Shown piece after piece: positions 3,408 to 33,603 of a stretch of DNA of 34,148 nt. The notes beneath the pieces were generated by a model, which was given only the letters and a program-made list of their open reading frames with translations, made no database searches and was not told the DNA's origin. Each line of letters opens with the position of its first letter. Position 1 is the first letter of the stretch. Made by a program: the position numbers and the translations under genes. Origin of the DNA: a virus; the IMG/VR virus record IMGVR_UViG_3300035698_024864, positions 1 to 34,148 of that record; one strand, written 5' to 3'.

Positions 3408-4258
3408 TTGTCTTCCCACCAGTACCATGTTTCCATTAGTGCATAACTGAAATAAGTTTCATGCTTAATAGGTTTGTTGCATTTTGAGATCCCAAGATCA
3501 CTGAGTTCTGATGCTTCGATTGTTATTTTATCTGGGTTTCTCATTGAAACAGATTTGCAAGTGTTAAAAACAAAGTTCACTGAGTAATTGTGTTTCGATC
3601 CAACCTCTACTTTCTTTTTCTTTTTATACATGTATCCAACGAGTTCTCTGACTAAGTCTTTAACATAAACAAAGGATCGTACTTGCTCCCCATGTCCTTT
3701 GATTGGGAAGGGTTTGTTTTTCCTGATGTGTTGGAATACTTTTGCTATCAAGGCTGGTGGCTTTTGTCTCGGCCCGAAAACATTGTAAGGTCTAACGATT
3801 GTGTAATCATAACCTTCATCTTCTTTTGAGTAATGCTCCACTCGCATTTCAGCAATTCTTTTAGTCATACCGTAGAAGTTTTTCTCTTTAGGTTTTGCTG
3901 CTATGCTTGAAAGAAAGATAAATTTTCCTCTTGGTTTAACAAACCAAAGCATATTTGAAGTACCTTCAACGTTAGTTGTTCTATATTCTTTCTTTTTTTC
4001 TTCAGCTTCATGAGCATTTATGAGTGCTGCTAAATGAAAAACAACATCAAATTTAGGTAATTTATAAACTAAATTCGGATCTCGAATATCATTGATGTGG
4101 ACATGTAGATTTCGAACAAGTTTGCCTGATTTCTTACAGATTTGTAATAAATTAGTAAGTTTTCGGTCAACAACATGTACTTCATGACCAAGACTTAATA
4201 ATTTATCAACTAAATGAGAGCCAATAAATCCACACCCACCCGTCACACATATCTTCAT
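3395..4258 (-). CDS. NAD(P)-dependent sugar epimerase/dehydratase (extended SDR)
   Basis: An extended short-chain dehydrogenase/reductase of the nucleotide-sugar epimerase family, 287 residues from the ATG at 4258. An in-frame ATG three codons earlier, at 4267, lies directly against the ribosome binding sequence, so I prefer the second. GGCGFIGS at 7-14 is the dinucleotide loop. FDVVFHLAA at about 70-78, FLSSI at 115-119 and YGMTK (catalytic Y129 and K133) follow, then VRPYNVFGPRQ, typical of UDP-glucose 4-epimerase or 4,6-dehydratase relatives. The serine motif is FLSS rather than the dehydratase TDE, so an epimerase or reductase is more likely than RmlB. It is somewhat short (GalE is about 330). 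It lies between an HNH gene and a glycosyltransferase. Confidence 0.82.
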   Translation of the reverse strand: MKICVTGGCGFIGSHLVDKLLSLGHEVHVVDRKLTNLLQICKKSGKLVRNLHVHINDIRDPNLVYKLPKFDVVFHLAALINAHEAEEKKKEYRTTNVEGTSNMLWFVKPRGKFIFLSSIAAKPKEKNFYGMTKRIAEMRVEHYSKEDEGYDYTIVRPYNVFGPRQKPPALIAKVFQHIRKNKPFPIKGHGEQVRSFVYVKDLVRELVGYMYKKKKKVEVGSKHNYSVNFVFNTCKSVSMRNPDKITIEASELSDLGISKCNKPIKHETYFSYALMETWYWWEDKWIV

Positions 4259-4263
4259 AATCC

Positions 4264-4758
4264 TCATCTCCTTCCTGTCGCATAAGCATTTAATAATCCA
4301 AATGAAATTGCGACTTTGTGGCTTTCTTTTCTTGGGTGATTATGGAAACACTTTTGAGAACAAAAACTTCCTCTATTTTCTTCTTTATTTTTTAATCTCC
4401 ATGATCCTATTAAAAATTTTTGATTACATTCAATACAAGTTTTTTCAGTTTTTGTTATTCCAGTAGCATGATAACTACCATGCTCTTTTGAAGTAACTAA
4501 CATCAGATTTTTTTCTGAATCATCAGATTTTATTTTATTAACATGATGGATTTGGAAACCTTCAAGAATTTGTTTGTTATGATAAGTTTCCCAAGCAATA
4601 AGTGATCTTAGAACATACCCTTCTTTAGAAGCTCTATGGTGGCCAGGAGAATATACTCTAACTCTACCTGTAGAGTCAGCATAACCATCACTGAAATTGT
4701 TTAAAGACCAAGGTTTTCTTGTTCTTAAAAACTTTCCATCTTTTTCTCTTGTCAACAT
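4264..4758 (-). CDS. HNH endonuclease with C-terminal zinc finger (homing-type)
   Basis: A 164-residue HNH nuclease like the free-standing homing endonucleases of tailed phages. After an N-terminal substrate-binding part (RVRVYSPGHHRASKEGYVLRS) comes the HNH core: AWETYHNKQILEGFQIHHVN with H71-H72, then the asparagine in SEKNLMLVTS (N84), then KEHGSYH (H93). A zinc finger follows, C108-x2-C111 and C133-x3-C137 (CIECNQKF and FCSQKC), and then a basic tail. The ribosome binding site GGTGTT precedes the ATG. There is no sign of a split host gene or intron around it, so it appears intron-less. Such genes move into neighbouring intergenic sites and often travel in variable regions like this one. 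Confidence 0.85.
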   Translation of the reverse strand: MLTREKDGKFLRTRKPWSLNNFSDGYADSTGRVRVYSPGHHRASKEGYVLRSLIAWETYHNKQILEGFQIHHVNKIKSDDSEKNLMLVTSKEHGSYHATGITKTEKTCIECNQKFLIGSWRLKNKEENRGSFCSQKCFHNHPRKESHKVAISFGLLNAYATGRR

Positions 4759-4774
4759 TTTAACACCTTTAAAA

Positions 4775-4957
4775 TTATTTAAGTTTGACTCCCATTTCTT
4801 TGATTTTTGTGTTAAGCTTGGTTGTTAGTTCTTCAAGTGATTCTTCGAATTGTTTTTGCTCATCACCTGGTTCTGGTGAAACTGAAACCCTTATTTCAAG
4901 TGATTCATAGTTTCCTAGATTAAATTTTCTTCCAACAGTTGCTTCATTGATCTTCAT
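4775..4957 (-). CDS. Small hypothetical protein
   Basis: A 60-residue protein with a strong GAGGAGG ribosome binding site and an ATG start. It begins MKINEATVGRKFNLGNYESLEIRVSVSPEPGDE, two short strands around a K/RKFNLGNYES pattern that I associate with small uncharacterised phage proteins. It ends in a helix (EESLEELTTKLNTKIKEMG). There are no catalytic residues or membrane segment. It lies between a coiled-coil protein and the HNH gene. Function unknown. Confidence 0.55.
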   Translation of the reverse strand: MKINEATVGRKFNLGNYESLEIRVSVSPEPGDEQKQFEESLEELTTKLNTKIKEMGVKLK

Positions 4958-4970
4958 AGTTTGGCCTCCT

Positions 4971-5396
4971 CTATATTTTTTCCATTTTTCTAATAACTTC
5001 TAATATTTTTGGTTTGTCTCCAAAAATTAATTGCTCTTTAAATTCTTTATCAAGAGTTTCTAGTTTTTCTATTCTTTTTTCAACATCGCTTAATTTCTTT
5101 TTTCTTTCAACTGGCATTTCAACTTTAGCTCTATATAGCCAGCTTAAATCTGATGGCTTTTCGTTATAGTTATCTAGTTCCATTTGGTATTTCTTAACAT
5201 GCTCCCAAAGTTTCTTTTTTGCATCTTGCCATCCATTAAAGAATTTCAAAAACTCCTTTGACTCATAATGCTCTTTGAGTAATGCATCTTTATAACCATC
5301 TCGTAACTCACATTTCTCATTTGATAATTTACTTCTTTTTGTATTGAAAATAGTCTCAGTATATTTTTCTATTCTTTTTATTTCTGATTGTGTCAA
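4971..5396 (-). CDS. Helical coiled-coil hypothetical protein
   Basis: A 141-residue, very charged, almost wholly helical protein (IKRIEKYTETIFNTKRSKL... and LSDVEKRIEKLETLDKEF) with no recognised domain. The nearest conventional start is the TTG at 5396, but the strong GGAGG site lies about 20 bases upstream of it. The frame stays open through ATT and ATA codons right behind that GGAGG before meeting TAA. The true N-terminus may therefore be six codons longer with a non-standard start. The gene follows a hairpin and AT-rich leader, so it may begin a new transcription unit. Function unknown. Confidence 0.55.
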   Translation of the reverse strand: MTQSEIKRIEKYTETIFNTKRSKLSNEKCELRDGYKDALLKEHYESKEFLKFFNGWQDAKKKLWEHVKKYQMELDNYNEKPSDLSWLYRAKVEMPVERKKKLSDVEKRIEKLETLDKEFKEQLIFGDKPKILEVIRKMEKI

Positions 5397-5462
5397 TTTT
5401 TCTATCTCTATAATTTAACCTCCTTTTTTATAAGAGTAAATAAATACCTCTGAATATCTTAT

Positions 5463-5492
5463 GAACAAACCATTTTATAAATGGAGTTGTTC
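5463..5492 (-). terminator. Hairpin after the 48-residue ORF, terminator or regulatory
   Basis: An inverted repeat of two 6-base-pair stems separated by a 2x1 internal loop, read on the minus strand: GAACAA pairs with TTGTTC and CCATTT with AAATGG around an ATA loop. It starts inside the TGA stop of the upstream small gene. There is no T-run after it, so intrinsic termination is not certain. The central ATTTATAAAA could instead serve as a TATA box for the next gene, with a leader of about 50 bases. Confidence 0.45.
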
Positions 5493-5637
5493 AGAGTTTT
5501 ATTAGGAGAACCCCTTTCTTTTCTTCTTCTCCCATTGCTCTTGTGAGCTTGTCTTTTTCTCCTTTCTCAAATTGAATAGCAAAATCATTTCCTTGTGGTA
5601 CTAATCTAATCTTGAACTTAGTTCTTTTCTTTACCAT
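5491..5637 (-). CDS. Small basic hypothetical protein
   Basis: A 48-residue ORF, MVKKRTKFKIRLVPQGNDF..., starting with ATG at 5637 behind a good GGAGTGTGA ribosome binding site that lies within the 3' end of the glycosyltransferase gene. It has two predicted strands, the second in FAIQFEKGEKD, then a charged helix, and ends KGVLLIKL. It fills the space between the GT4 gene and the hairpin and would otherwise be missed because of its size. Function unknown. Confidence 0.5.
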   Translation of the reverse strand: MVKKRTKFKIRLVPQGNDFAIQFEKGEKDKLTRAMGEEEKKGVLLIKL

Positions 5638-6658
5638 GTCTTTCACACTCCTTTTTGAACATGTTTTCTAGTTTGTCAATTGATTCTTTCCACTTAAAAT
5701 GCTTGGAAGCATATTTGGAAGCATTTATTCTTATTGTATGAGAGTGGTTCTTGTCTTCTGCTGCTCTCATAATAGCTTGTCTCATCTTAGAATCGCTTCC
5801 AAGTTCATATTGAATACAATTGTAATCAGGGATACAGTATTCATCTACTCCTGTGCAATCAGATGTAACAACGAGTGTCCCTAGTTTCATTGCTTCCATG
5901 TGTGGTGTTGGTGATCCTTCAAATTTAGATGGTTTCACAAGAACATCTGCTGATCTAATGATGTTCAAGGAATTAGCCCAGGTTTGTGCGAAGAATCTTT
6001 GTTCAAACATCAAGTGGAATTCGAAAGGAAGGTCTGTTGGCTGTGCATTTGTTAACAACCATTTCTCATAAGGTAGGTTCCTCAACACTCTGATTGCATC
6101 ATGCACTCCTTTGTTTGAGCTTCTGATGTCTCCTTCTACCAAGATTATTGGCCCTCGTTTTTTAGAAGCTTTAGTGAGCCTTGTTGGAAGATTCGATGGC
6201 ATTTGTTGTTTGTTTGGGATGTAGTAAACGTTTTTAGCGTACTTCAAAAGGAATTCGTTTCTGAGCCAAGCTGCTTCAGTGAAAATTGTGAAGTCTTTTT
6301 GGTAGTAAGTGAACTCTGCTCTCATCTTCGAGTATTCATCATGGAAGAATCTTGATTCTATTTGTTGAGCAAAGTAAAATTTCTTCACTTTTTTAGGTAG
6401 ATTCAATTGGTTGATGTGGTAAACTGTTTCAAAGTAAGTTGCAACTATTGCATCTAGTGGAATTTCTTTTGTTTCCATGAACTTTTCAATTACTTTTACA
6501 TTTTTATGCAGTTTTATCCAGTCTAACTTGTATAATTTTGGTTGGAAAGCAGTCACATACATTACATGCCCTCGTTTAGCTAGTCTATTCATGTGTTCTA
6601 CTACTATTCTGTTGCCTCCACAGCACATGAAACTTGGCATCACATAACAAATTTTCAT
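5618..6658 (-). CDS. Glycosyltransferase family 4-like (GT-B)
   Basis: A 346-residue GT-B glycosyltransferase. The N-terminal Rossmann half opens with MKICYVMPSFMCCGGNRIV (glycine-rich loop as in WcaG/RfaB relatives, typically P..GG) followed by EHMNRLAKRGHVMYV. The C-terminal half has PIILVEGDIRSSNKGVHDAI, then IIRSADVLVKPSKFEGSPTP and HMEAMKLGTLVV at about 246-264. The last is the E-x7-E nucleotide-sugar-binding signature of GT4 enzymes (FEGSPTPHMEAM). The start overlaps the previous gene's stop by ATGA. It is retaining by family, with sugar and acceptor unknown; the context points to the same glycan pathway as the epimerases. Confidence 0.85.
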   Translation of the reverse strand: MKICYVMPSFMCCGGNRIVVEHMNRLAKRGHVMYVTAFQPKLYKLDWIKLHKNVKVIEKFMETKEIPLDAIVATYFETVYHINQLNLPKKVKKFYFAQQIESRFFHDEYSKMRAEFTYYQKDFTIFTEAAWLRNEFLLKYAKNVYYIPNKQQMPSNLPTRLTKASKKRGPIILVEGDIRSSNKGVHDAIRVLRNLPYEKWLLTNAQPTDLPFEFHLMFEQRFFAQTWANSLNIIRSADVLVKPSKFEGSPTPHMEAMKLGTLVVTSDCTGVDEYCIPDYNCIQYELGSDSKMRQAIMRAAEDKNHSHTIRINASKYASKHFKWKESIDKLENMFKKECERHGKEKN

Positions 6659-6906
6659 TTAATCACATCCAGCAATTCTACAAACGGATCTCCAATAGGC
6701 TTTATTGATATATGCCACCTAGGATCAATAAATTCAAACATAGGAGTAGGAAAATTTTCAGTCCCTACTACAATATCTTGTGTTGGAGATTCTATAATAA
6801 CTTCTTCTGCTTCTGTCACAAAAAATTGAACTCTACCACCCATAATAATTCCATAAAAAAATATAGCTTTTTCTTCGGTCTTTGATTTTTTATTTTTACT
6901 CATCAT
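6655..6906 (-). CDS. Hypothetical protein
   Basis: An 83-residue protein whose ATG overlaps the TGA of the glycosyltransferase upstream, behind GAGGTG. It has a basic N-terminus (MMSKNKKSKTEEK), then strands AIFFYGIIMGGRVQFFV and VIIESPTQDIVVG, and ends in an ATGA overlap with the GT4 gene. The second methionine codon at 6903 is an equally possible start. There is no recognisable motif. Being coupled between two glycosyltransferases, it may be an accessory subunit, but nothing in the sequence shows that. Confidence 0.55.
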   Translation of the reverse strand: MMSKNKKSKTEEKAIFFYGIIMGGRVQFFVTEAEEVIIESPTQDIVVGTENFPTPMFEFIDPRWHISIKPIGDPFVELLDVIK

Positions 6907-7799
6907 TCACACCTCTTTACTAAATCAGACCAACACTTGTTTGCTGAGAACTTTTTTCTAACGAGGTTGAGGGAATTTTGTGCAATTTTTTCTCTTGCAC
7001 TTTTATCTTCAAGGTACTCTTTAATTGTCGGAACAAGGTCTTCAACTGATTCAAGTGGAACAAAATGTTCGTAAGGAATCATGTCATCATGATGAGTCAA
7101 TGGCTCTGAGATAATGAAACCTCCACAAGCCATGATGTTTTGCATTCTATGTTGAAGCTGTGGGTACTCGTCAATGTGTAGATTCAAATTGATTTTGATT
7201 TGGTTAATAACTTCAACGAGTTTAGAACCAACTAACCCATGTGCAACATGTAAAAAATTCATTTTGTGTTCAACAGGCATGAGGTACTGAGTTCTTCGAG
7301 GAGTAAACATATCCATGTTTCTCTCTCGAAAATCAGTTGATCTTCCAATGAATCCAACATCCCATTCTTTTTCAAGTGCTTGAGGCCTGAATGTATTGAG
7401 GTCAACAGGTAATTGAAATTCTCCATCAACCTTGTAGCCTTTACTCTTCAAGTAATCAATGTGAGTCTTATCATAATGGAAATGATAATCAAACCTGTTC
7501 TTCCCTTGTTTCATACAGAAAGGAACTTCTGCTCTTTCAATAGGCTCTGTAGAAATCCATACCTTTTTACCGCTTAACTGATTTAGGATTTCATCTCTGT
7601 AAAATTCTCCTCTTAGGAAGAACCAGTAATCAAATTCATCTTTGTATTCTAACAGAGGATAAGCAAAATTCTCCTCAATTTTTTTGTTGGCACTAAAATC
7701 ACCAGCTAGGTCAAACTTAGTAACTTCATGATTAAACATCCCTTGAGGAATTGCACAATCATAGTAGTGCATTTGCCCTACTATTGCTATTTTACTCAT
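6903..7799 (-). CDS. CgeB-like glycosyltransferase
   Basis: A 298-residue protein resembling the CgeB/Glyco_trans_1_2 family (GT-B type). The N-terminal half is degenerate (IAIVGQMHYYDCAIPQGMF). The C-terminal half has KEWDVGFIGRSTDFRER at about 145-160, then INQIKINLNLHIDEYPQLQ and HRMQNIMACGGFIISE at 217-232. The family pattern is KI.LN......R.FE..ACG.F.L.E. It ends with a short helical region (KEYLEDKSAREKIAQN) also usual for the family. It starts at ATG behind AAGGTAATTG and belongs to the surface-sugar cluster. Confidence 0.8.
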   Translation of the reverse strand: MSKIAIVGQMHYYDCAIPQGMFNHEVTKFDLAGDFSANKKIEENFAYPLLEYKDEFDYWFFLRGEFYRDEILNQLSGKKVWISTEPIERAEVPFCMKQGKNRFDYHFHYDKTHIDYLKSKGYKVDGEFQLPVDLNTFRPQALEKEWDVGFIGRSTDFRERNMDMFTPRRTQYLMPVEHKMNFLHVAHGLVGSKLVEVINQIKINLNLHIDEYPQLQHRMQNIMACGGFIISEPLTHHDDMIPYEHFVPLESVEDLVPTIKEYLEDKSAREKIAQNSLNLVRKKFSANKCWSDLVKRCE

Positions 7800-7809
7800 G
7801 TCAATTACC

Positions 7810-7959
7810 TTATTCTAATCCCATTTCATGTTCTTTCAGGTCAAGCATTCTTTCGTTCTGCATGATTAGTACTGCTAGTGGAGCAAGAACTATAGTGAAA
7901 ATGCATAACAATGCAATGAGTTGCATTGTTACTTTGTTGAATGAACTTCTTTTTTTCAC
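7810..7959 (-). CDS. Small single-span membrane protein
   Basis: A 49-residue ORF that starts at a GTG overlapping the TGA of the TRAM gene (GTGA) and ends just before the CgeB-like gene. It has a basic N-terminus (MKKRSSFNK), one hydrophobic span at about 11-33 (TMQLIALLCIFTIVLAPLAV, then LIM), and a charged C-terminal tail NERMLDLKEHEMGLE. The positive-inside rule puts the N-terminus in the cytoplasm. It could be an unrelated small holin-like or signal-anchor protein. The direct coupling to a TRAM RNA-binding gene is notable but its meaning is unknown. Confidence 0.6.
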   Translation of the reverse strand: MKKRSSFNKVTMQLIALLCIFTIVLAPLAVLIMQNERMLDLKEHEMGLE

Positions 7960-8150
7960 TCTACCACTTCTCCAAAGCTTACTGTTCCTCGGACAGCAGT
8001 AATTTTCACTGCTACACTATCTCCTTTTTGTACTCCAGGAACTATGATAACATAGCCTTCTACTCTAGCAATGCCATCTCCTTTATCCCCAATGCCTTCG
8101 ATCACGACATCATAGGTTTCTCCTTCTACAACTGGTATGTTTTCTTTCAT
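7956..8150 (-). CDS. Free-standing TRAM domain protein
   Basis: The whole 64-residue protein is one TRAM domain (RNA-binding beta barrel of the OB type). It contains VVEGETYDVVIEGIGDKGDG at about 7-26, IARVEGYVIIVPGVQKGDSV at 27-46 and VAVKITAVRGTVSFGEVVE at the end. The GxGxxGDGIA and FVPGxxxGDxVxVxI pattern is that of TrmA/RumA-type TRAM modules. Stand-alone TRAM proteins of this size are a known archaeal family (some act as cold-responsive RNA chaperones in methanogens); in bacteria the domain is usually part of a larger RNA-modifying enzyme. It overlaps the RmlC-like gene by ATGA. It probably binds viral or host RNA; it also supports an archaeal host. Confidence 0.9.
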   Translation of the reverse strand: MKENIPVVEGETYDVVIEGIGDKGDGIARVEGYVIIVPGVQKGDSVAVKITAVRGTVSFGEVVE

Positions 8151-8773
8151 TTTTTAGTCATCTCCCATACTTCTTTCCCAAGAACAAATGGAGAAATTCT
8201 TGTTTCATCAGGTTTCTCCTGATTGTACTCTCTATTTGCTGTTGAAATCATAATTGTGTCATCTTCTAAGCTCTTCCATCCATGATACCATCCAGCAGGT
8301 ACTATCAAACACTGAGGTTTTCTATCAGTTAAGATGAATGTTTGTCCTTTCATGAAGCTTAAAGAATCAACTTCCTTTCCTCCAGGATAATTTAATTTCC
8401 CTTTAGCTATAGCTTCAAGAGTTCCATCAGTTTGTTCTCTAGTAGCTAAATCCATTGCTTCTTTAGGAAATAGGATAAACTTTGCCGATCCTTTCACGAT
8501 GTGAAAGTAATCCCATAGTTCTTCATGAGCGTGGAAAGCTCTGATTGTATTTCGAACAGGATCCCCCACCACGTAAACCTGTCCGAACTTATCCAGATAT
8601 TCATCCGAGCCATGGATGATTTCATAGAGGTAGCCACGATCATCAACGTTTTGGATAAGATCAATTACTCTTGGATCTTCTTTTAATTTTTGTTCAGGAA
8701 CAATAATTTTATCCTTTTCATCTACTTGTTTTTGTTTCTCTTCTGCTTCTGTTGGATCGTTTTGCATTGCCAT
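8147..8773 (-). CDS. rmlC: RmlC-like dTDP-4-dehydrorhamnose 3,5-epimerase (cupin)
   Basis: A 208-residue cupin-fold epimerase of the RmlC family. After about 35 polar residues comes VDDRGYLYEI (43-52), FGQVYVVGDPVRNTIRAF (63-80) and HAHEELWDYFHIVKGSAKFI, with H81/H83 where RmlC has its active-site histidine. PAGWYHGWKSLEDDT at 159-173 is the usual PxGxxHG barrel strand. In the standard pathway RmlC converts dTDP-4-keto-6-deoxyglucose to the 4-keto-rhamnose form. Because the middle of the protein differs from bacterial RmlC (FPKEAMDLATREQTDG), a related 3- or 5-epimerase or ketoisomerase is possible. A GGAGGAG site precedes ATG. RmlD lies one gene upstream. Confidence 0.78.
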   Translation of the reverse strand: MAMQNDPTEAEEKQKQVDEKDKIIVPEQKLKEDPRVIDLIQNVDDRGYLYEIIHGSDEYLDKFGQVYVVGDPVRNTIRAFHAHEELWDYFHIVKGSAKFILFPKEAMDLATREQTDGTLEAIAKGKLNYPGGKEVDSLSFMKGQTFILTDRKPQCLIVPAGWYHGWKSLEDDTIMISTANREYNQEKPDETRISPFVLGKEVWEMTKK

Positions 8774-9103
8774 TTATTTCTCCTCCGGTACTTTAGGAGG
8801 ATCTGTTGCTTTTACTGTTTCTCCTTCAATTATTTTGTATGCTTGACCAACAATAAGAGGACCAAAAGCTTTCCCTATTACTTCTTTTATTGTTTTGACA
8901 TCTTCAACTCTCAAGTCTAATTCATTTGATGAATTAAGTTTGATTGCTATATCATATCTTCTTGCTTTCTCATCTCCTTCGAGAGCTTCTTCTCCTTTAT
9001 AAGCACCCATCAAAGCATTTTGACAAACTGTTTTCAGGTTGATCCCTTCTTTTATTTTCGATCCATCTAAGTTAGTTAATTTTTTTGAAAAATCTATTTT
9101 CAT
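8774..9103 (-). CDS. Conserved-type phage protein of unknown function
   Basis: A 109-residue protein with the layout MKIDFSKKLTNLDGSKIKEG, then NLKTVCQNALMGAYKGEE, KARRYDIAIKLNS, DLRVEDVKTIKEVIGKAFGP and LIVGQAYKIIEGE. I recognise the pattern (L.G..I.....TL..V..NALM....G.EK.RRY.LA.KI.....DL..ED..LIK..IGK.F.PL.VGQAY..L) as one widespread among tailed phages without a known role. It starts at ATG behind GAGGTGAT and sits between RmlD and RmlC genes. It might be a structural or host-interaction protein; nothing links it to sugar synthesis except position. Confidence 0.6.
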   Translation of the reverse strand: MKIDFSKKLTNLDGSKIKEGINLKTVCQNALMGAYKGEEALEGDEKARRYDIAIKLNSSNELDLRVEDVKTIKEVIGKAFGPLIVGQAYKIIEGETVKATDPPKVPEEK

Positions 9104-9981
9104 TTAATCACCTCAAGATTATACTCTCCTAATTGATATTTTTTCTTATCAATTAAGTACTCATCAACAGCATCTTTCCAATCGACTTGTTCAACATCTA
9201 CTCTGTTTGATAAGATTGAAGACTTAGGTCTCAATGCTTTTGCTCCTGATTCTTTTGTAGATTGAGAAGCTACTTTAACATCGAGTCCTGATTTAGTAAT
9301 TGCGTACTGAGCTAACTCTTGCCATGTGCAAAAGCCTTTATTAGTCAAATGAATTACTCCAGCTATATGTGAATCAACACACTTCAATAACCACTGAGCT
9401 AAATGCTTTGTGTAAGTAGGAGAAAACTGTTGGTCATTCACTACTTTCAATGGAGTTCCTTCGCTTGCTAGTTTAATCATCAAGTCAATGAAGTTATGTT
9501 TCTTTGCTGAAGGTCCAGCTACTCCAAACAATGCTGATGTTCTACAGATAATGAATTGATCTGGATCCATTGCTTGGTTAATCAATTGTTCTCCAAGTGC
9601 TTTTGATGCACCATAAACATTTATTGGACAAACAGGAGAATCCTCTGCATAAATGTGGCTTCCATATCCACCAAACACATAGTCTGTTGAGATGTGGATT
9701 AGCTTTATTCTTTTCATCGCACAGATTTTAGCAAGGTTCTCTACTCCTTTTGCATTTACTCTGAATGCCATGCTTGCTTCTTCTTCAGCTACATCAGTGT
9801 TATGATAAGCAGCAGTGTTGATGATTAGTTGAGGATTCACTTCATCAATTTGAATCTTACATTGTCTGTGGTTTGTAAGATCGAAAGCATCTTTGTTGAA
9901 AGAAGTTACTTTGTGATCTTTGAAAGCAAGCCTCAAGTCATAAGCTAATTGTCCTTTACTACCAGTAATTAGAATTCTCAT
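9100..9981 (-). CDS. rmlD: dTDP-4-dehydrorhamnose reductase (RmlD)
   Basis: A 293-residue reductase/SDR of the RmlD family, started at the ATG at 9981, which overlaps the TAA of the upstream epimerase (TAATG). The long frame to 10044 only extends back into that gene. GSKGQL at 7-12 is the RmlD-specific Rossmann loop, then LIINTAAYHNTDVAEEE, HISTDYVFGG (STDYVF at 98-103) and NVYGASKALGEQ (catalytic Y123, K127), and later QQFSPTYTKHLAQWL, the substrate-binding pattern of RmlD (Q.G.PT...DLA). It reduces dTDP-4-keto-L-rhamnose to dTDP-L-rhamnose using NAD(P)H. The C-terminal part (RPKSSILSNRVDVEQ) is also family-typical. Confidence 0.88.
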   Translation of the reverse strand: MRILITGSKGQLAYDLRLAFKDHKVTSFNKDAFDLTNHRQCKIQIDEVNPQLIINTAAYHNTDVAEEEASMAFRVNAKGVENLAKICAMKRIKLIHISTDYVFGGYGSHIYAEDSPVCPINVYGASKALGEQLINQAMDPDQFIICRTSALFGVAGPSAKKHNFIDLMIKLASEGTPLKVVNDQQFSPTYTKHLAQWLLKCVDSHIAGVIHLTNKGFCTWQELAQYAITKSGLDVKVASQSTKESGAKALRPKSSILSNRVDVEQVDWKDAVDEYLIDKKKYQLGEYNLEVIK

Positions 9982-11012
9982 TAGAAAACCTTCCCATTGT
10001 AACCATCTACAACTGTTTTGAATTTCAACAACAACTTCATCCAATTAATATTGTAGTAGATTGGGTTATCAAAATCTGTTTTGTTGTTTCCAATTATTTT
10101 ATCAACTATGTAACCAACACTTTCAAGTATGTTGTACTGTGGTTCTAATTTCAATAGTTTTTTCATCTTTGAATTATCTACTCTGTAATTTCTAACTGCT
10201 TTGTTTGTGTACTGAGGATTCAAGCTACACTCAATTCCTTTCTCACTCAAAGCTTTTTGTATTTGGATTGCTACTTCACTTATTCTGTAATTCTCTTTTG
10301 AAACATTAATTACTTCAAAATTATTTTTAAGAGGAATCATAATTGCTCTTACGTATGCATCAGCAGCATCCCTGACATCTATCAAAGGTCTCCAGATTTC
10401 TCCACCATTATGAAGATCAAGTTTGCCTGTTGTCATTGCTGATTTAACAAATGTATTGACAACAAGATCATACCTCATCCTTGGAGAGTACCCATAAACA
10501 GTTCCTTTTCTCAAGCAAATTACTTCAAAATTTTCATCTGAAAGGATTTCTAAATCTTCTTCTGCTTTGTACTTAGAAGAAGCATAGTAAGATTTTGGAT
10601 TGACTGGTGATTCTTCAGTTGCTTCTGTATCTTTTAGTTCTGAGTCTCCGAAATCATAAACTGAACAGGTTGATGCGAACACATATCTTTTTACTCCGGC
10701 TTCTTTAGCCATGTGCGCTAGCTCAACAGGTGATTTGTAATTTAGTTGTTCATTAGCTTCTGGATTAAAATTAGCCATTGGATCATTTGATAGGCCTGAT
10801 AAAAATATTACTGCTTCAAATCCTTTGAAGTCTTTTACTTCAAGGAGCCTCATGTCGCTTTCAATCAAAGTTATTTTATCTAGCAATCCATCAAGAGAAT
10901 CTAAACCAAAGTAACCTCGGTCACATACTGTTACTTGATGTCCTTCTGCTACTAATTGTCTTGTGAGAACAGAACCAACGTACCCTGCTCCACCAATTAC
11001 TATAACCTTCAT
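9981..11012 (-). CDS. NAD-dependent nucleotide-sugar epimerase (extended SDR)
   Basis: A 343-residue extended SDR. GGAGYVGS at 7-14 binds the cofactor. VIFLSGLSNDP at about 69-78, ASTCSVYDFGDSE at 113-125 and YASSK (Y143, K147) give the Ser-Tyr-Lys active site, then CLRKGTVYGYSPRMRYDLVV, and EIWRPLIDVRDAADAY at about 205-220. This resembles UDP-glucose 4-epimerase-like enzymes of surface-polysaccharide clusters. RmlB would need TDEVYG in place of STCSVYDFG, so it is not dTDP-glucose 4,6-dehydratase. The C-terminal 60 residues (SVGYIVDKIIGNNKTDFDNP) are typical of this subgroup. It starts at ATG behind GGAGG and its stop overlaps the RmlD start. Confidence 0.82.
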   Translation of the reverse strand: MKVIVIGGAGYVGSVLTRQLVAEGHQVTVCDRGYFGLDSLDGLLDKITLIESDMRLLEVKDFKGFEAVIFLSGLSNDPMANFNPEANEQLNYKSPVELAHMAKEAGVKRYVFASTCSVYDFGDSELKDTEATEESPVNPKSYYASSKYKAEEDLEILSDENFEVICLRKGTVYGYSPRMRYDLVVNTFVKSAMTTGKLDLHNGGEIWRPLIDVRDAADAYVRAIMIPLKNNFEVINVSKENYRISEVAIQIQKALSEKGIECSLNPQYTNKAVRNYRVDNSKMKKLLKLEPQYNILESVGYIVDKIIGNNKTDFDNPIYYNINWMKLLLKFKTVVDGYNGKVF

Positions 11013-12413: not shown

Positions 12414-12918
12414 ATTTTCTCCCCCACAGACAGTTGATACAGTTTACATATATTGGTGTCTCTATTCCTGCTGATAATTCTCTTATTTGATGGCACTTCA
12501 TTTTCAGGTTCTGCTCTACTCTTTCTTCAAAATAAGCTACTGCATTAGGGTGTCCCTTCCTTATTAAAAAAGGTAAGAGATTGCAGACCTGTAGTACAAA
12601 TGCATTCTGGCTATTCTTTTTCTTTAACTTATACAAGTCAGCAGTCAATGCAAACAACCCCATTGACTTTATCTCATCATAAAAACAAATATAAGAACAG
12701 ACTGAAACAAGAGATTCATTCTCAGGAAATCCAATAGCTCTCAGTCTTTTCAAAGTAAAAGAAACACTACTATTTTTATTTGAATGAATGTACTTTAATT
12801 CTTTTTTGATTAAAACAAACCAAGAACCAAATCTATTGTATACTGGAGTACCTCTAAGAGTGAGCATGTGATTCTCATAAAGAATTCTATTCTTCTGCTT
12901 CTCTGTTAAATTCAACAA
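12388..12918 (-). CDS. Hypothetical protein in the replication operon
   Basis: A 176-residue protein with a TTG start behind GGAGGCTGAGG, overlapping the end of the helicase gene by 32 bases. The N-terminal third is basic and helical. A leucine-rich central part (YDEIKSMGLFALTADLYKLK, VLQVCNLLPFLIRKGHPNAV) is followed by YVNCINCLWGRKY near the end, where CINC may bind a metal together with other cysteines (KCHQI). I do not recognise it. Position suggests a replication accessory, for example a loader or primase partner, but there is no motif for either. Confidence 0.55.
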   Translation of the reverse strand: MLNLTEKQKNRILYENHMLTLRGTPVYNRFGSWFVLIKKELKYIHSNKNSSVSFTLKRLRAIGFPENESLVSVCSYICFYDEIKSMGLFALTADLYKLKKKNSQNAFVLQVCNLLPFLIRKGHPNAVAYFEERVEQNLKMKCHQIRELSAGIETPIYVNCINCLWGRKYARKGIIL

Positions 12919-14956
12919 CCTCAGCCTCCTTCATAGTTCTATGGTTCTTTACTATTGAATGCCAGTAAGGATAAATCTTTCTGTAAACCCCAACCTGAAT
13001 AATACTCACCAATCCTATTTTTTCTAGTTGTTTAGCCATATAGCTTGGAGATTTAACTGGCTTGTTTGTCTCCATCTCTGCAATACTAATGCCGCTATTC
13101 TGACAAACATATTCATACAGAGTTCCTAATTCTCCTGTCAAATAATCTTTTCTTTTTGCAACAGGTAGATTCATTAAATCAATTGCGCTTTTGCCACCCC
13201 ATGTTCCAACGATAACTGTCAACAATCCTTTTGCTTCCTCGTAATCCCCTGGAAGAATCTCAAACTTCTCTCTCTGTTGAATTATAAAATTATATTTAGA
13301 GACTCCATCAATCAAAGCATAAACCATGTGTCTTCCTCTGGCTTCCCAGATACCTTGTAATTTCTCAGGGACTTTTGTTTCTATCTCTCTGAATAACTCT
13401 TCAACTAAATTACCTTGAGGGCTAATCTTGAAACTAACCATGTAATCATACAAGGAAATAAAATCATTGTTCTTCTTTGGTTTTGGATCTCCATCCATAC
13501 TCCTGATGAGGTTCTCTCTGCTCTTAATGAATTTAATATGCTCTGGAGTCTGGTGATACCAAATGAATCTTGACATGAAAGCTTCATCTAAAACACTAGC
13601 CATTTCAACAATAGAAGAAAAAACATTCTTCCTTGGATTACTCGCAAGGAAAACTTTAGAAGAAGCTCTAACCTTAAGTTTCTGATCGTGCTTTCCAGAA
13701 CCAGCTAATCTTTCTTTATGCTCAAGGATTGAAGTAATCAAGTCAGCATCATTATCAGCATAAGCTCCAATGGATTTGTTTCTTTTCAAAGCCCTCATGA
13801 ATTCATCTATAATAGAAACTCTGAAGCATCTGCAGATGTACCCTTCATCTGGAAGAGAGCCTCCAAAGTTAGGAATAAGATTTTTGAGTGTGACTGTAGT
13901 TCCATCAGCAATTCCACTAGGCTCATCAAATACATTAGCCAAGCTTTCTAAGAATGAGCTTTTACCTGTACCTCTCTCAGCAAGGATACCGAAATGAATA
14001 GGCCATCCATCATAACCTCGTAAGCTACAAAACAAAATAGAAGCAATTAGTTTCTCAAACCATTGAGGATGTCTCAATTCTCCAAAAATATTTTTAGCCA
14101 AGGTCTCATGATTCCATCCTTTTACAAGGCCTTGTGCTTCTTCAAATGATAGAGGAACAATCGCTGGTTTAACTTCACTGAGAAAAATAATATCTCTCTT
14201 GGAGTGAAGAGTTGTTTTCTCACCAATCTTTAATTGCTCTTGCATCCTAACAATCATTCCACTTATTTTACATTGACCTATATCTAATTCTTTAACTGAA
14301 AGAAGCAAATACTCTTGTTTGTCATTGTCTTGATAAAGGTACACATAGAATGATTCTACAAATGAATCAATCAAATTCCTTTTCTCAGAACTGTCACCAA
14401 ACCATCTTATTAGATTCTTCCCATCAGCTTCTTCGTAAATAGCTGTTAAAAGAATTGGTTGTTTGGTTTCTATTTTTTTAGAAATGATCCTACCTTGAGA
14501 TTTGAAGTTACCAAAAACAAAGAAAGGTAAAGTTATTTCTTCAGGATCTACTCCATCAATTGCTTGGTCGTCTATAAGTTTAATCGTTAATCTTCTTGAT
14601 GTACTGGCTGAATAATCAGCATCAAGGAATCTTATTTTTCTGGAAGCAGGATTCTTTTCAACAAACTCCTTAGCTACTTGGAATAAGCCTTCATCTATTT
14701 TCTCAATAGGTGGTTTATCTGTTCCTACTACTCTTCCTTTTTCAAGGCCTCCAATACCAACATAGTTTTTAGCAGTGGATAAATCAATTGAATATTTTGA
14801 TTCTGCTTCAATCAAGTAACTCATTATTTTTTTCTTATCTTTTTTATCAATAAGTTTTTTAAGTTCAGCTTGGATTTCTCCAATTCTTTCAATAGAAATT
14901 GTCCCTTCTTTTAATTCATGAAGAGCATTAAATACTATTCCCTTAATGAAACTCAA
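12887..14956 (-). CDS. MCM-like AAA+ replicative helicase
   Basis: A 689-residue protein with an AAA+ core of the MCM group. The N-terminal 280 residues look like a beta-rich DNA-binding part (GKNLIRWFGDSS, CKISGMIVRMQEQLKI). The MCM-type core runs from about 295 to 470: WFEKLIASILFCSLRGYDG, then GILAERGTGKSSFLESLANV with Walker A at 326-333, a hairpin region, RVSIIDEFMRAL with Walker B at about 381-386, VFLASNP with sensor-1 N440, and VLDEAFMSRF with the arginine finger R463. A winged-helix-like C-terminus follows (SPSYMAKQLEKIGLVSI). No N-terminal zinc finger is visible, unlike cellular MCM. It starts at TTG behind GGGTGAG, overlapping the upstream gene's stop, and is probably the replicative helicase of this virus. 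Confidence 0.82.
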   Translation of the reverse strand: MSFIKGIVFNALHELKEGTISIERIGEIQAELKKLIDKKDKKKIMSYLIEAESKYSIDLSTAKNYVGIGGLEKGRVVGTDKPPIEKIDEGLFQVAKEFVEKNPASRKIRFLDADYSASTSRRLTIKLIDDQAIDGVDPEEITLPFFVFGNFKSQGRIISKKIETKQPILLTAIYEEADGKNLIRWFGDSSEKRNLIDSFVESFYVYLYQDNDKQEYLLLSVKELDIGQCKISGMIVRMQEQLKIGEKTTLHSKRDIIFLSEVKPAIVPLSFEEAQGLVKGWNHETLAKNIFGELRHPQWFEKLIASILFCSLRGYDGWPIHFGILAERGTGKSSFLESLANVFDEPSGIADGTTVTLKNLIPNFGGSLPDEGYICRCFRVSIIDEFMRALKRNKSIGAYADNDADLITSILEHKERLAGSGKHDQKLKVRASSKVFLASNPRKNVFSSIVEMASVLDEAFMSRFIWYHQTPEHIKFIKSRENLIRSMDGDPKPKKNNDFISLYDYMVSFKISPQGNLVEELFREIETKVPEKLQGIWEARGRHMVYALIDGVSKYNFIIQQREKFEILPGDYEEAKGLLTVIVGTWGGKSAIDLMNLPVAKRKDYLTGELGTLYEYVCQNSGISIAEMETNKPVKSPSYMAKQLEKIGLVSIIQVGVYRKIYPYWHSIVKNHRTMKEAEVVEFNREAEE

Positions 14957-15544: not shown

Positions 15545-15916
15545 CTAGAATACAACTGCAACCACTAGGCTAACACAGATGCTAACTGCAGTTACAATCA
15601 CATAAACATTAGCTTTGAAAATTTTAAGATCAGTAATTTCTTTTGTAAGCTCTTTGAAAATTAGAGCGTTTTCTTCACAATGACTTTTGAATATTTTTTT
15701 TATTTCAGTTGTTTCTGTTTTTATATCATTAGTTAAATTTCTCAAATCACTTTTCATTTCAGTTTTAAATTCTTTTCTTTCTTCTTTTAAATCTCTAAGT
15801 TCGTAAAGCATGAATCCTTTGAAAGCATCGTTAGGAGTATCTCTTCCCAACTCTGTGTGTTTCCCATTAATTTTGAAATCATCCAATGTTATCAACTCTA
15901 ATTTTTTCCTTGCCAT
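15545..15916 (-). CDS. Coiled-coil protein with C-terminal membrane anchor (XhlA-like)
   Basis: A 123-residue protein. Residues about 35-100 form a long coiled coil (LRDLKEERKEFKTEMKSDLR, TNDIKTETTEIKKIF). The last 21 residues (VYVIVTAVSICVSLVVAVVF) are one transmembrane span at the very C-terminus. This layout (coiled coil then TM) is like haemolysin XhlA-family lysis proteins and some phage anchor proteins. It overlaps the transglutaminase-like gene by 19 bases and precedes the holin-like gene by 11 bases. It could tether the lysin at the membrane or regulate the pore; sequence identity to XhlA was not tested. Confidence 0.6.
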   Translation of the reverse strand: MARKKLELITLDDFKINGKHTELGRDTPNDAFKGFMLYELRDLKEERKEFKTEMKSDLRNLTNDIKTETTEIKKIFKSHCEENALIFKELTKEITDLKIFKANVYVIVTAVSICVSLVVAVVF

Positions 15917-16818
15917 TTTCTTTTTCTCTTTATTGTTATCTTATCCCCAAGTTCTTTCTTGAATGTTGCTGATGCTTCTCTTGATTCAAATTGATGGATA
16001 CTAAATACATCATTGTAACTAAACCAAATTCCACTTGGTTTGAGTCCGGAATAATCATTATTGTTATGCCTTGAAGGATAGAGTTTCAAATCAGAATGTG
16101 AGTAATCTTTCTTTGTTGAATTTAGATGTCTCCAAATTCCTGTTGAATCTTTTGTATAAACAGTAGCATGACCAATATTATTTCTAGCCCAACCAAAACT
16201 AATTAACCACTTGTCTCTTGGGATATTTGCTGCTGCGAAATAAGAACCAATTTTGTTAGCCCAATCATCACAATCACCAGCAAGTCCTTTGCTTCTAGCA
16301 AATCTAAGTTCGTATGGAAACATCAAATACTCTGAGAAACCATATTGAGTATCAGAACCATATTTGTAATTACTCTTAGCTTTCAAATAAAGTTTAGGAA
16401 TGAGTTCATCAAGATCTTGAGAACCATTATACCTAAGAGATTTAACCGCTTTTTCTATTGTGAAATCAGGCATGATAAAATTCCTGATGTCCATCTCAAC
16501 TTGCTTGAAATGATTAGGTCCAACAAGAACAGGTCTTTGATAAGTTATGTCTGCATTAGGAATGTCAGTTGGTGGTTTGATTAACCCATTAATCTTGTCT
16601 TTGAGTTCTTCAATTTCTTTTACATCAAGGACAATTGTTTCTGAAAGGATTTTGTTTTCATCTATTTTTCTTGCAATAGTATTTTTTTGAGAAAGAACTA
16701 AACTATTATTCCCAACAATTACTTTACCTAGTCTTATAATTTCTTCTTTCTGAAACTTACAAGGATTTGTTAAAGACTCAAATACCCTTGAGATAAATTC
16801 TTCAAACTCATTGCTCAT
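15898..16818 (-). CDS. Transglutaminase-like cysteine peptidase (candidate lysin)
   Basis: A 306-residue protein. A helical/coiled N-terminal third (about 1-80) is followed by a transglutaminase-like domain: YKYGSDTQYGFSEYLMFPYE, then RSKGLAGDCDDWANKIGSYF with the nucleophile C183 in GDCDDWA. NIGHATVYTKDSTGIWRHLN follows with H217; the third residue is N233 (HLNST) where Asp is usual. GxCxDWA...GHA is the arrangement of the transglutaminase-like and bacterial BTLCP-type peptidase families. Tail-adjacent position and the downstream anchor/holin-like genes suggest a virion or lysis peptidase that cuts the host envelope. In an archaeal host the target could be an S-layer or pseudomurein peptide; that is inference. 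Confidence 0.7.
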   Translation of the reverse strand: MSNEFEEFISRVFESLTNPCKFQKEEIIRLGKVIVGNNSLVLSQKNTIARKIDENKILSETIVLDVKEIEELKDKINGLIKPPTDIPNADITYQRPVLVGPNHFKQVEMDIRNFIMPDFTIEKAVKSLRYNGSQDLDELIPKLYLKAKSNYKYGSDTQYGFSEYLMFPYELRFARSKGLAGDCDDWANKIGSYFAAANIPRDKWLISFGWARNNIGHATVYTKDSTGIWRHLNSTKKDYSHSDLKLYPSRHNNNDYSGLKPSGIWFSYNDVFSIHQFESREASATFKKELGDKITIKRKRKWQGKN

Positions 16819-29825: not shown

Positions 29826-31343
29826 TTAAATATCCCACATGTTTGATTCATAATCCTCATCATTAGAACTACCTTCTTTTGAAACATCAATGTCTTTTTT
29901 ACCACCATCATCTTCATCATCATCAAGATCAATTGATTCAATTGAAGTATAATTAATAGCAGCATCTGCAGCTTCTATAGCGAGAGCAAGAGCTATGACA
30001 CAATCATCATGCTTTCCTAAAGCTTCGTAAGTTTGCTTTCCTTGATTATCTCGTTTCAAACCAAATGTCAGTAACTCTTCAATAAGAGTTTCATCTGATT
30101 CATCAATAATAAGAACTTTGTTTCTCATGTAAGATTCAAGTTTAGAAAGAATAAGCTCCTTGGTTTTACGAGTAGTAATGAATGGTTCGAAAACCCCTGG
30201 GAATCCTTTATCAACTCCAGTAAGTTCATTAGCCATATCAATAGAAAGTCCAACCGCTTCAATCATTCCTTTTTGTATATTAAATTTCTCTTTCAAATAT
30301 CTTAGTCTGTCCTTTTGTTCATCCGATGGTTTTCCTTGATATCTCTCTTTTCTAGCTTGAGTTAATTTACCATCAAACTTTTTAAGGATAAAATAAACAG
30401 AATAGTCTGAAGATTTTTTAGTACCTAGTGCAATGTCTGCTCCAAGGAAATATTCTCCTGCTGCTCTAGCTTCAGACTCAATTTCAACTTTACCCATACA
30501 ACTCTTGACAAGATCATAAGGAAATAAAGCAGTTCCTGCAGCAATAGGTTTACACATGTACTCTTTGTTAAAAGAAGCAGAACCCATTGAGTTTCTTAAA
30601 CGTTCTAGTTTCTCAGCAGAGTATTTCTCAGGCCAAAGAGGAATATTAAATTTATCATCAATTGCTTGCATTTTAAGAACACTCATATTAGGAAATTTCT
30701 CTTCATCACTCAAATCACCAAGAAGCAAATCATCAAAACTCTGAGGAGTACCAGTAACCATGAGCTTTCCTTTTCTAGTTTGAAGAGTAGGATAAAGAAC
30801 TTCATGAAAACCTCTCTTAGCTTTCTCCCAAGTAATAGCATCATCTTCAAGAATATCATCAAGTAAAACATAATCTGCATGAATGGAACGAATTGATGTT
30901 GGCCTTGAGAAAGGTCTAGCATAAAATCTAGTTCCGTTCTTTAATTCTATTTCCCCTTCAGACCATTTAGAATCCCCACCTGGATAAAGATCTCTTCTCA
31001 ATTCAGGGATGTCTTCAATCCAACTTCTAATCCTATTAAGATTTCTAAGCGCTTGTTTTTCTTTAGCAGAACTAATTAAAATTTCAAGTGGTTTAGTAGC
31101 TTTCCAAGCTATGTGAGTTAAATAAGAAGTTGAAGTTACTGATTTTCCGTGGCCTCTTGGAAGAATAGAAAGAGATTCATCTGAAGCTTCGAAGTTATTC
31201 ACTAATGCTTTATGGTGCGGATATAACCATAAGTCTGGATCGCTCTGACGAATGATTGTATTGAAAAAGAATTCGTAATCATTCTTTGCCAGAATCTTCC
31301 GATGTAGCGGTGGTCTCTTTTGTAGTTGGTTCAACGGTTGCAT
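29826..31343 (-). CDS. terL: Terminase large subunit
   Basis: A 505-residue packaging ATPase-nuclease. The ATPase half has LPRGHGKS (Walker A, 61-68), YVLLDDILED (Walker B with catalytic acid, about 158-167) and VTGTP (coupling motif, 196-200). The nuclease half has GADIALGTKKSSDYSV (D303), GMIEAVG (E362) and KHDDCVIALALA (D446/D447), the metal-binding acids of the RNase H-like nuclease. The ATG at 31343 overlaps the upstream small subunit frame by 65 bases, with a GTGAG-type ribosome site five bases before it. The acidic end (SIDLDDDEDDGGKKDIDVSK) is not conserved. It cuts and packages DNA with the small subunit and portal. Confidence 0.92.
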   Translation of the reverse strand: MQPLNQLQKRPPLHRKILAKNDYEFFFNTIIRQSDPDLWLYPHHKALVNNFEASDESLSILPRGHGKSVTSTSYLTHIAWKATKPLEILISSAKEKQALRNLNRIRSWIEDIPELRRDLYPGGDSKWSEGEIELKNGTRFYARPFSRPTSIRSIHADYVLLDDILEDDAITWEKAKRGFHEVLYPTLQTRKGKLMVTGTPQSFDDLLLGDLSDEEKFPNMSVLKMQAIDDKFNIPLWPEKYSAEKLERLRNSMGSASFNKEYMCKPIAAGTALFPYDLVKSCMGKVEIESEARAAGEYFLGADIALGTKKSSDYSVYFILKKFDGKLTQARKERYQGKPSDEQKDRLRYLKEKFNIQKGMIEAVGLSIDMANELTGVDKGFPGVFEPFITTRKTKELILSKLESYMRNKVLIIDESDETLIEELLTFGLKRDNQGKQTYEALGKHDDCVIALALAIEAADAAINYTSIESIDLDDDEDDGGKKDIDVSKEGSSNDEDYESNMWDI

Positions 31344-31914: not shown

Positions 31915-31945
31915 CTAACATTTTAGCTAGTTTTACAGTCTCCAT
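31850..31945 (-). CDS. Tiny ORF at the start of the small terminase region
   Basis: A 31-residue ORF (METVKLAKMLDAKKKNKNSF, then VEKIEIESSKI) with an ATG six bases behind an excellent GGTGAT site. It overlaps the 5' end of the small terminase frame, which has a weaker site. It may be a separate small protein, or the real N-terminus joined to the terminase by a +1 shift near its stop (AAA-ATA-TGA becomes TAT-GAT). I cannot decide between these. Listed at low confidence. Confidence 0.35.
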   Translation of the reverse strand: METVKLAKMLDAKKKNKNSFVEKIEIESSKI

Positions 31946-32100
31946 GTTTCGATCACCAACGCTCCATTTTTAAAGTAAATACTATTTACCTTTTCTCCAT
32001 TAAAATTGTTTCCTTTTAATACTTTAGATATTTCTACAGCAAATTCTGCTGCAGAAAGATCCTTCAAACCTTCTTTTCCTGAAATTGTGATTATAGCCAT
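31933..32100 (-). CDS. Small hypothetical protein
   Basis: A 55-residue ORF with ATG at 32100 seven bases behind GGAGG. MAIITISGKEGLKDLSAAEF, AVEISKVLKGNNFNGEKVNS and IYFKNGALVIETWRL give a strand-helix-strand-strand layout. It sits between the adenylate-forming enzyme and the terminase genes. Small size and unclear family, but the strong ribosome site and clean frame support translation. Confidence 0.6.
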   Translation of the reverse strand: MAIITISGKEGLKDLSAAEFAVEISKVLKGNNFNGEKVNSIYFKNGALVIETWRL

Positions 32101-32116
32101 TCAAAAACCTCCTACA

Positions 32117-32815
32117 TTATTTTTCTTCTAGTGATAATTTAACACCACATACTGTTTCACTTGTTTTGTTCTCAGACATTCTTTTTATGTCTAACATTAT
32201 TCTCTGACAATCTCTTTTACAAAAAGGACAAGTTCCTTCTATTACTTCTCCAATATCTTTTGTACCTATCCCTTTGTAAGTCAATTCTCCTTTACCAACT
32301 TTGAATCCACCATCAAATACATGATAACCTGATTCTATATTGGCGCAAGTAGTCCATGCTTTCCTTGCTTCGGTTGTTCCATAAGTAGCTGTGATAACAC
32401 ATTCCTTTGGAACTAATTTCTTGAGTTCTTCTAACTTACCATTCAAACCTTTTGAAACAATCAAATGCTTTAGCTTTCCTAAAAAATCTTTTCCTTCAGC
32501 TAAAACACTTGGCAAGTGCATACTAAGACCTGCAATGTAAACCGGTGGAAATTCTTTAAACAACTCTTTTGCTTGCTCTGGCTTTATCATTCCTAATTCT
32601 ATTACTAGAGAATTAGTTAACTCTGCGTACTGGTGTACTATCCAGTAACCAATGTTTGAAGAGTGAGGGAAGAAATTGTAAATAATTCCTTGCTCTCCAT
32701 TGTAGATTTCTCTGAACTCCTCAGCACATTTATTTATTCCTTTCCAATCTTTCTCTCCGTAGAAAACAGGTGTTGGGTTTCCTGTTGTTCCTGTTGTATA
32801 TAATATCGTTTTCAT
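32117..32815 (-). CDS. Miniature adenylate-forming (PaaK/ANL-like) enzyme
   Basis: A 232-residue protein containing only the middle of an ANL adenylate-forming domain. TTGTTGNPTP at 7-16 is the ATP-phosphate loop (A3), SSNIGYWIVH and VYIAGLSMHLPSVLAE are core segments, ATYGTTEARKAW at about 143-154 is the A5 YGxTE motif, and IGTKDIGEVIEG holds the A7 aspartate (D187). CPFCKRDCQRIM (C196, C199, C203) and RMSENKTSETVCGVKLSLEE match the end of PaaK/LuxE-type N-domains. About 80 residues before the A3 loop and the whole mobile C-terminal domain with the catalytic lysine are missing. The start is firm: ATG behind GGAGGG. It might activate a carboxylate as an adenylate or bind one without catalysis. 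Confidence 0.75.
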   Translation of the reverse strand: MKTILYTTGTTGNPTPVFYGEKDWKGINKCAEEFREIYNGEQGIIYNFFPHSSNIGYWIVHQYAELTNSLVIELGMIKPEQAKELFKEFPPVYIAGLSMHLPSVLAEGKDFLGKLKHLIVSKGLNGKLEELKKLVPKECVITATYGTTEARKAWTTCANIESGYHVFDGGFKVGKGELTYKGIGTKDIGEVIEGTCPFCKRDCQRIMLDIKRMSENKTSETVCGVKLSLEEK

Positions 32816-32826
32816 ATAATCCCTCC

Positions 32827-33603
32827 TTAAGTGTTATTTGGTAATCCAACTTTTGAACCTGATGGCATTTTTAATTTAGAACCGCTTCCTTTTACATAAA
32901 TATGGCTAGCATCATCAAAAGATAAGCTAAATCCATTTATATCAAGAAAATAACCAGCATCTATTAACAAAGAACCTACTTTTTCTTCATCTTGCTCCAT
33001 TGTACAGTTTCCACTTGTGGCATTAATAACCCAAGCACCAGCAGGTGCAACACAAGCATGAGTATAATTAATCCCTAATTTAGCTCTATAATCTGTAGCG
33101 TTTGTATTATCATAATCCCAAGAATATATCCTTCTAGGGTCATCTCCTTTAGAACTAGCTGCTTCATCAAGTTTTATAGTAACATAATTCCCATAAGCAA
33201 AAGTTGCTTTGTCAACTATTCTTTGAATCAGAGCTGTGAAATCTGTTGTATCATAATTAGTATTTATAGCCCATATCCCAGCGTTCCAAGTAACATAAGT
33301 AGCCCAAAAAGTTCTTGAATTTAAATTCTCTGAAGCACCAAACACTGCTGAATTAACAACATCTTCAACATAAATTCTTGGGTCAAAATCATCACCAGCA
33401 GCAACATAAGAACGAACTTCTATGAGAGCAGCACCAATTGATGCACCTGGATAAACATTGAGTTGAAACCTAAGAAAACCATTAGTAGCACTATATTCAC
33501 ATCTAACGCTATCAGCTGTTAAATTAGGTGTTGAAGAAGACCTATCACAATACCCATCATTAGCACTTGCAGAAATACTTACAATAATGGCTTCAGTTCC
33601 CAA
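32827..33603 (-). CDS. DNRLRE-like tail fibre or appendage protein
   Basis: A 258-residue beta-rich protein with a TTG start overlapping the preceding ORF. NGFLRFQLNVYPGASIGAAL, then EVRSYVAAGDDFDPRIYVED, TFWATYVTWNAGIWAINTNY, DFTALIQRIVDKATFAYGNY, VTIKLDEAASSKGDDPRRIY and SWDYDNTNATDYRAKLGINY, fit the DNRLRE/CBM96-like jelly roll (W..G.W...D.T..IQ.IV....W..GN...I.......R...S.D...A.A..L.I.Y). The last 75 residues (CTMEQDEEKVGSLLIDAGYF, GFSLSFDDASHIYVKGSGSK) look like a separate small beta domain. Probably surface-exposed; host binding is inference. A contact role on virions is plausible because of the neighbouring fibre gene. Confidence 0.62.
   Translation of the reverse strand: MGTEAIIVSISASANDGYCDRSSSTPNLTADSVRCEYSATNGFLRFQLNVYPGASIGAALIEVRSYVAAGDDFDPRIYVEDVVNSAVFGASENLNSRTFWATYVTWNAGIWAINTNYDTTDFTALIQRIVDKATFAYGNYVTIKLDEAASSKGDDPRRIYSWDYDNTNATDYRAKLGINYTHACVAPAGAWVINATSGNCTMEQDEEKVGSLLIDAGYFLDINGFSLSFDDASHIYVKGSGSKLKMPSGSKVGLPNNT

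Follow-up and report, generated by a model that had tools for sequence, protein, structure and literature searches.

Does a 232-amino acid viral protein that matches only the central part of an acyl-activating enzyme still serve the virus, or is it what remains of a gene captured from a host? The question is raised by an open reading frame (ORF) in a 34,148-nucleotide stretch of viral DNA (IMG/VR record IMGVR_UViG_3300035698_024864; hereafter, the window), which the initial annotation described as a stand-alone, PaaK-like core of an adenylate-forming (ANL) enzyme.

The gene and its genomic setting

The gene for the ANL/PaaK-family core protein, identified as an ORF and with a profile of cellular homologues, occupies positions 32117..32815. 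The 232-residue frame originally proposed exists, but its strand had to be corrected to minus (32815→32117). The ORF starts with ATG, and the plus strand over the same stretch is crowded with stops; the other two frames of the gene contain 26 and 13 stops. Compared with the full-length relatives described below, the 232 codons contain no stop or frameshift, and all losses are in frame. The ribosome-binding site (TAAGGAGGGATTAT, positions 32816..32831, minus strand) lies 5' of the ATG and overlaps the stop codon of the fibre gene; with its Shine-Dalgarno sequence TAAGGAGGGATTATATG, it is strong and placed directly before the region encoding the A3 motif. The strong ribosome site and open frame noted at the outset are therefore both present. 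The codon adaptation of the gene is 0.667, compared to 0.644-0.748 for the structural genes of the virus.

Directly upstream, on the same strand, is the gene for a 258-aa fibre-like protein (32827..33603), which was called by fibre-gene adjacency and produced no match of weight in family searches. Downstream, the order is a 55-aa ORF preceded by its own ribosome site (31933..32100, minus strand), the small and large terminase subunits, the portal, the protease and the major head protein. The large terminase (29826..31343, minus strand; PHROG E=7.7e-44) is related to terminases of DPANN proviruses. The location between a fibre gene and the terminase genes thus stands, with the 55-aa ORF as an additional element before the terminases; in a six-frame profile search of the window, this ORF showed no resemblance to the absent ANL C-terminal domain. 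In a related provirus (L084), glycosyltransferase-like genes (2894-6165) are found between the small and large terminase genes, near the slot that the ANL core takes in the virus analyzed here.

The position of the gene, immediately downstream of fibre-like genes and ahead of the terminases, is compatible with a fibre-linked role, in which the protein would act alongside the upstream fibre genes, either as an assembly factor or by attaching an acyl or aminoacyl group to the fibre. Many tailed phages encode fibre helpers at such a position. Position is all that points this way, however, with no family link, and ANL cores are not known to play such a part elsewhere, so that this explanation appears very improbable.

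An identical copy of the gene, within 2501 identical bases, is present in a second IMG/VR contig, which makes an assembly join or artefact unlikely, although the two contigs may share a site or project of origin; being identical, the second copy contributes no evolutionary information. No relatives of the viral protein were found in INPHARED, and no other viruses with an ANL core were found in IMG/VR or INPHARED, so that one viral lineage is sampled. IMG/VR scans with real family sequences yielded nothing new; scans with artificial alignment rows made by hand, which served as steering patterns only, were empty and carry little weight. PaaK-like matches in 'phage' records were discarded: most are long and come from faecal contigs without annotation or from a very large Acinetobacter record, and they probably represent cellular DNA. 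The PaaK-like family was not found in six provirus-bearing genomes identified via the terminase of this virus, and a literature search on viral ANL enzymes, PaaK zinc sites and truncated ANL proteins returned nothing directly relevant. As far as sampled, the short form is apparently the virus's own.

Descent, probable host and cellular relatives

The Pfam AMP-binding model (PF00501) matches the viral protein with E=1.2e-4 and 21.4 bits, under the cut-off of 29.9, and a search of the PDB with the viral protein alone gave one weakly matching chain, a phenylacetate-CoA ligase. A profile built from 11 cellular homologues, with the virus left out, recognizes the viral protein with E=7e-27, in agreement with the proposed ANL/PaaK homology; in a six-frame search of the window with the cellular-homologue profile, it was the sole match of weight. 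The cellular relatives themselves match NCBIfam FlxY (E=9e-54 for the best member), and a profile of these relatives plus the viral row matches PDB 4r1l with E=1e-52. Descent of the viral protein from the ANL/PaaK lineage can accordingly be regarded as secure at the level of sequence comparison. Single-sequence structure prediction gave a pLDDT of 42.7, too low for a meaningful PDB fold search; in this low-confidence model, the order of strands and helices resembles an ANL core only in residues 1-157.

The genome likely belongs to a tailed virus with a DPANN host, given the matches of its TRAM protein, terminase, portal and MCM-like helicase. The stand-alone TRAM protein (7956-8150, minus strand), of a type characteristic of archaea, is 77% identical to a chromosomal copy from Diapherotrites, and its identity to a protein from a Woesearchaeota genome is 61%. 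The large terminase is 32% identical (E=2e-39) to that of a provirus in the phylum that includes Woesearchaeota; the portal shows 27% identity to one terminase-matched provirus of the same phylum, and the helicase, an MCM-like AAA+ protein without a Pfam match (12887-14956, minus strand), shows 30% identity over 457 aa to another.

Other genes of the window, all on the minus strand, include a large surface-sugar set (286-11012) that consists of methyltransferases, glycosyltransferases, NAD-dependent epimerases, RmlD and a dTDP-sugar isomerase-like protein. Within these coordinates, the product of 750-1784 combines a C-terminal methyltransferase domain with an N-terminal half that has no Pfam match and resembles a P-loop region of the nucleotide-kinase type. 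A 306-aa protein (15898-16818), also without a Pfam match, has a transglutaminase-like appearance (AGDCDDWA, GHA) and is possibly a lysis or maturation enzyme.

A search of 371 genomes of the Woesearchaeota-containing phylum produced 12 matches (E-values down to 8e-15), of which 11 lie in full-length proteins. The strong family matches in this phylum number 16 (loci L066-L075, L077 and L100-L104), and every one is full length (415-488 aa). One more match, a weak one (L076, G011 contig 21), falls within a frame that stays open for about 12,045 codons, in a genome from the same phylum. In the tree, the virus is placed, tentatively, as the sister group of 16 DPANN family members (support 93/85), on a very long branch (2.46 changes per site). 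No close source was found in the phylum Diapherotrites or among Halobacteriota (best E=6.5e-7).

The cellular PaaK/FlxY-like gene repeatedly lies beside a gene for a PlsC-type acyltransferase (PF01553), which directly adjoins it in half of the loci (8/16: L070, L072, L075, L077 and L100-L103), and in several loci, a neighbor reads as a putative ADP-forming acyl-CoA synthetase subunit. These neighbors suggest a role of the host family in activating acyl groups that are then transferred; the ligase and the PlsC-type gene, sometimes with the putative synthetase subunit, represent a candidate acyl-activation/transfer module in archaea. The viral protein could be a decoy, or dominant-negative form, that mimics the host PaaK-like enzyme, competes for its partners, such as the PlsC-type acyltransferase, and alters envelope chemistry during infection. 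The nearest relatives come from the phylum of the probable host, half of them directly beside the PlsC-type gene, and the surface-sugar genes carried by the virus fit the same scheme. However, a decoy that acts through protein contacts would have no use for the ATP and Mg contacts that the viral protein keeps, identity of 23-31% leaves surface mimicry unproven, and a place among structural genes suits a virion or assembly role better than an early takeover of the host. We consider such a decoy improbable.

Elements retained and lost in the viral protein

The A3 loop, the A5 motif, the A7 aspartate and the cysteine cluster that were initially recognized by eye all align with the cellular homologues. 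The phosphate-binding loop A3 (TTGTTGNPTP, residues 7-16; 32768..32797, minus strand, as are the segments that follow) fits the pattern [ST][ST]G[ST]TG.P in its first eight positions (TTGTTGNP, residues 7-14) and has the canonical ANL form, more so than in the nearest relatives. The A5 motif YGTTEA (residues 145-150; 32366..32383) contains the invariant, Mg-binding Glu149. In the A7 region (Lys186-Asp187; 32255..32260), the ribose-binding aspartate is invariant, the glycine of the usual Gly-Asp is replaced by lysine, and the preceding strand is lost. At the A8/hinge (Arg212 and the next residue; 32177..32182), Arg212 is invariant. Finally, Cys157, His165, Cys196 and Cys199 (32219..32347) form a C-H-C-C set that is invariant in 21 of 21 sequences and probably constitutes a zinc site. 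In PDB 2y4o, the histidine and a cysteine pair are absent together, which fits one common metal site, zinc itself being deduced.

The virus keeps all nine columns that show no variation among 20 cellular homologues (P-loop Gly9, Glu149, Asp187, Arg212, Cys157, His165, Cys196, Cys199 and Gly176), compared to 44 of 180 variable columns; if retention followed this background rate, nine of nine would be kept with a probability of about 3e-6. Among the columns with at least 75% conservation, 19 of 34 are retained (Fisher p=4e-4). This pattern indicates that most of the divergence took place under constraint, but need not mean that the constraint persisted once the protein had been truncated.

The losses are extensive. 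Relative to the cellular proteins, about 115 residues are absent ahead of A3, and the part absent after A8, of about 110 residues, includes the catalytic lysine (A10, in the C-terminal lid domain); the absence of both parts, already pointed out in the initial annotation, holds against 16 full-length relatives. The protein stops about 20 residues past Arg212, so that its end is near the domain boundary after A8. Two losses come in addition to those listed before: between His165 of the SGYH motif and Asp187, about 38 profile positions are reduced to 17 residues, with some 20 residues around A6-A7 gone, and the conserved GGE/GAE adenine loop before A5 is replaced by SKG, with a short deletion. 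The possibility of a split enzyme, with the missing parts encoded elsewhere in the window, was discarded after the six-frame profile search revealed no remnant of the lid domain. With the lid, the GGE loop and the A6-A7 strands gone, the protein is unlikely to be a complete, efficient ligase. The original description is thus correct in outline, the viral copy being more reduced than it supposed.

These losses invite the explanation that the gene is a non-functional relic, a captured host-type acyl-activating gene that has been trimmed at both ends and internally and is still present. Several functional pieces are missing, the close cellular relatives are full length in 16 of 16 cases, and the gene was not found in other IMG/VR or INPHARED viruses, nor was the family seen in the six terminase-matched, provirus-bearing genomes. 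Against this stand 232 codons without a stop or frameshift, with every loss in frame; a start and ribosome site that are well placed directly before A3; viral codon usage; and the retention of 9/9 invariant residues. The initial annotation had reasoned that full-length relatives might expose this copy as a broken gene; the relatives are indeed full length, yet nothing marks this copy as broken, and its intact frame, codon usage and invariant residues agree with the impression that it does not look like decay. On balance, a relic seems less than likely, while remaining a serious contender.

A proposed nucleotide-binding core and its relation to known enzymes

The reading that we prefer, with a probability of roughly one half (about 0.48), is that the central part of a PaaK/FlxY-type enzyme, from A3 to A8, is kept as a folded, zinc-stabilized ATP/AMP-binding core that performs at most the adenylation half-reaction and depends on a partner. 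In ANL enzymes, ATP and the acid are bound by the N-terminal domain; the C-terminal lid contributes the lysine used in adenylation and subsequently rotates to allow the second step. The viral core, which appears to hold the ribose, Mg and phosphate contacts and lacks the lid, might make or hold an adenylate, that is, accomplish the first half-reaction at most, perhaps weakly and with help; a partner protein, viral or host, would supply the role of the missing N-terminal region and lid. From the conserved residues, we infer folding, zinc and ATP binding, whereas partial adenylation with a partner is a guess. Given the acyl activation and transfer suggested by the neighbors of the cellular relatives, host acyl metabolism or the adjacent fibre would be the likeliest targets.

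The retained core is favored by the nine of nine invariant columns, the canonical P-loop and the open frame with a strong ribosome site within the structural block, as well as by codon adaptation inside the structural-gene range and a truncation near the post-A8 domain boundary. It is disfavored by the loss of the lysine domain, of approximately 115 N-terminal residues, of parts of the A6-A7 strands and of the GGE loop, by the very long branch, with the kept residues possibly reflecting constraint that preceded the truncation, and by the occurrence in one viral lineage, in two identical copies. A stronger version is in our estimate unlikely: a natural, selected minimal ANL core of ~230 residues, lacking the region before A3 and the lid, that still binds or generates an adenylate and serves the virus in a DPANN archaeon, whether completed in trans by the lid of a partner or acting on host acyl activation as a regulator.

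Either the viral protein is a minimal ATP-binding core turned to a new purpose, or it is a relic that has been well preserved. A functional protein would reveal how small a portion of an ANL enzyme suffices, a question so far addressed by laboratory truncation, and would represent a lever on host acyl chemistry for viruses of DPANN archaea; if a relic, it would record gene flow between such viruses and the acyl-activation genes of their hosts.

The closest known proteins, the PaaK/FlxY-like proteins of the Woesearchaeota-containing phylum, share with the viral protein A3, A5, the A7 aspartate, the A8 arginine and the C-H-C-C set at 23-31% identity, and the nearest of them also share the signature TE-x-K/R-x-A/V/S-W-x2-C, followed by SGYH, after A5. 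They differ in having an N-terminal region and a C-terminal domain (415-488 aa), in being chromosomal, often beside acyltransferases, and in a P-loop that is often GRTA or GRTG, unlike the viral one. The phenylacetate-CoA ligase 4r1l has the same order of core motifs, the Cys/His set and a CPCGR-type motif; it is, however, a complete two-domain enzyme of 436 aa, of which the viral protein, itself shortened internally, covers roughly the stretch from residue 89 to about residue 335. Lid-less ANL N-terminal domains, such as the N-domain of firefly luciferase, are laboratory constructs with the full N-terminal region. The viral protein resembles them in the absence of the lid with its catalytic lysine, but it is the product of a natural gene and dispenses with the region before A3 as well.
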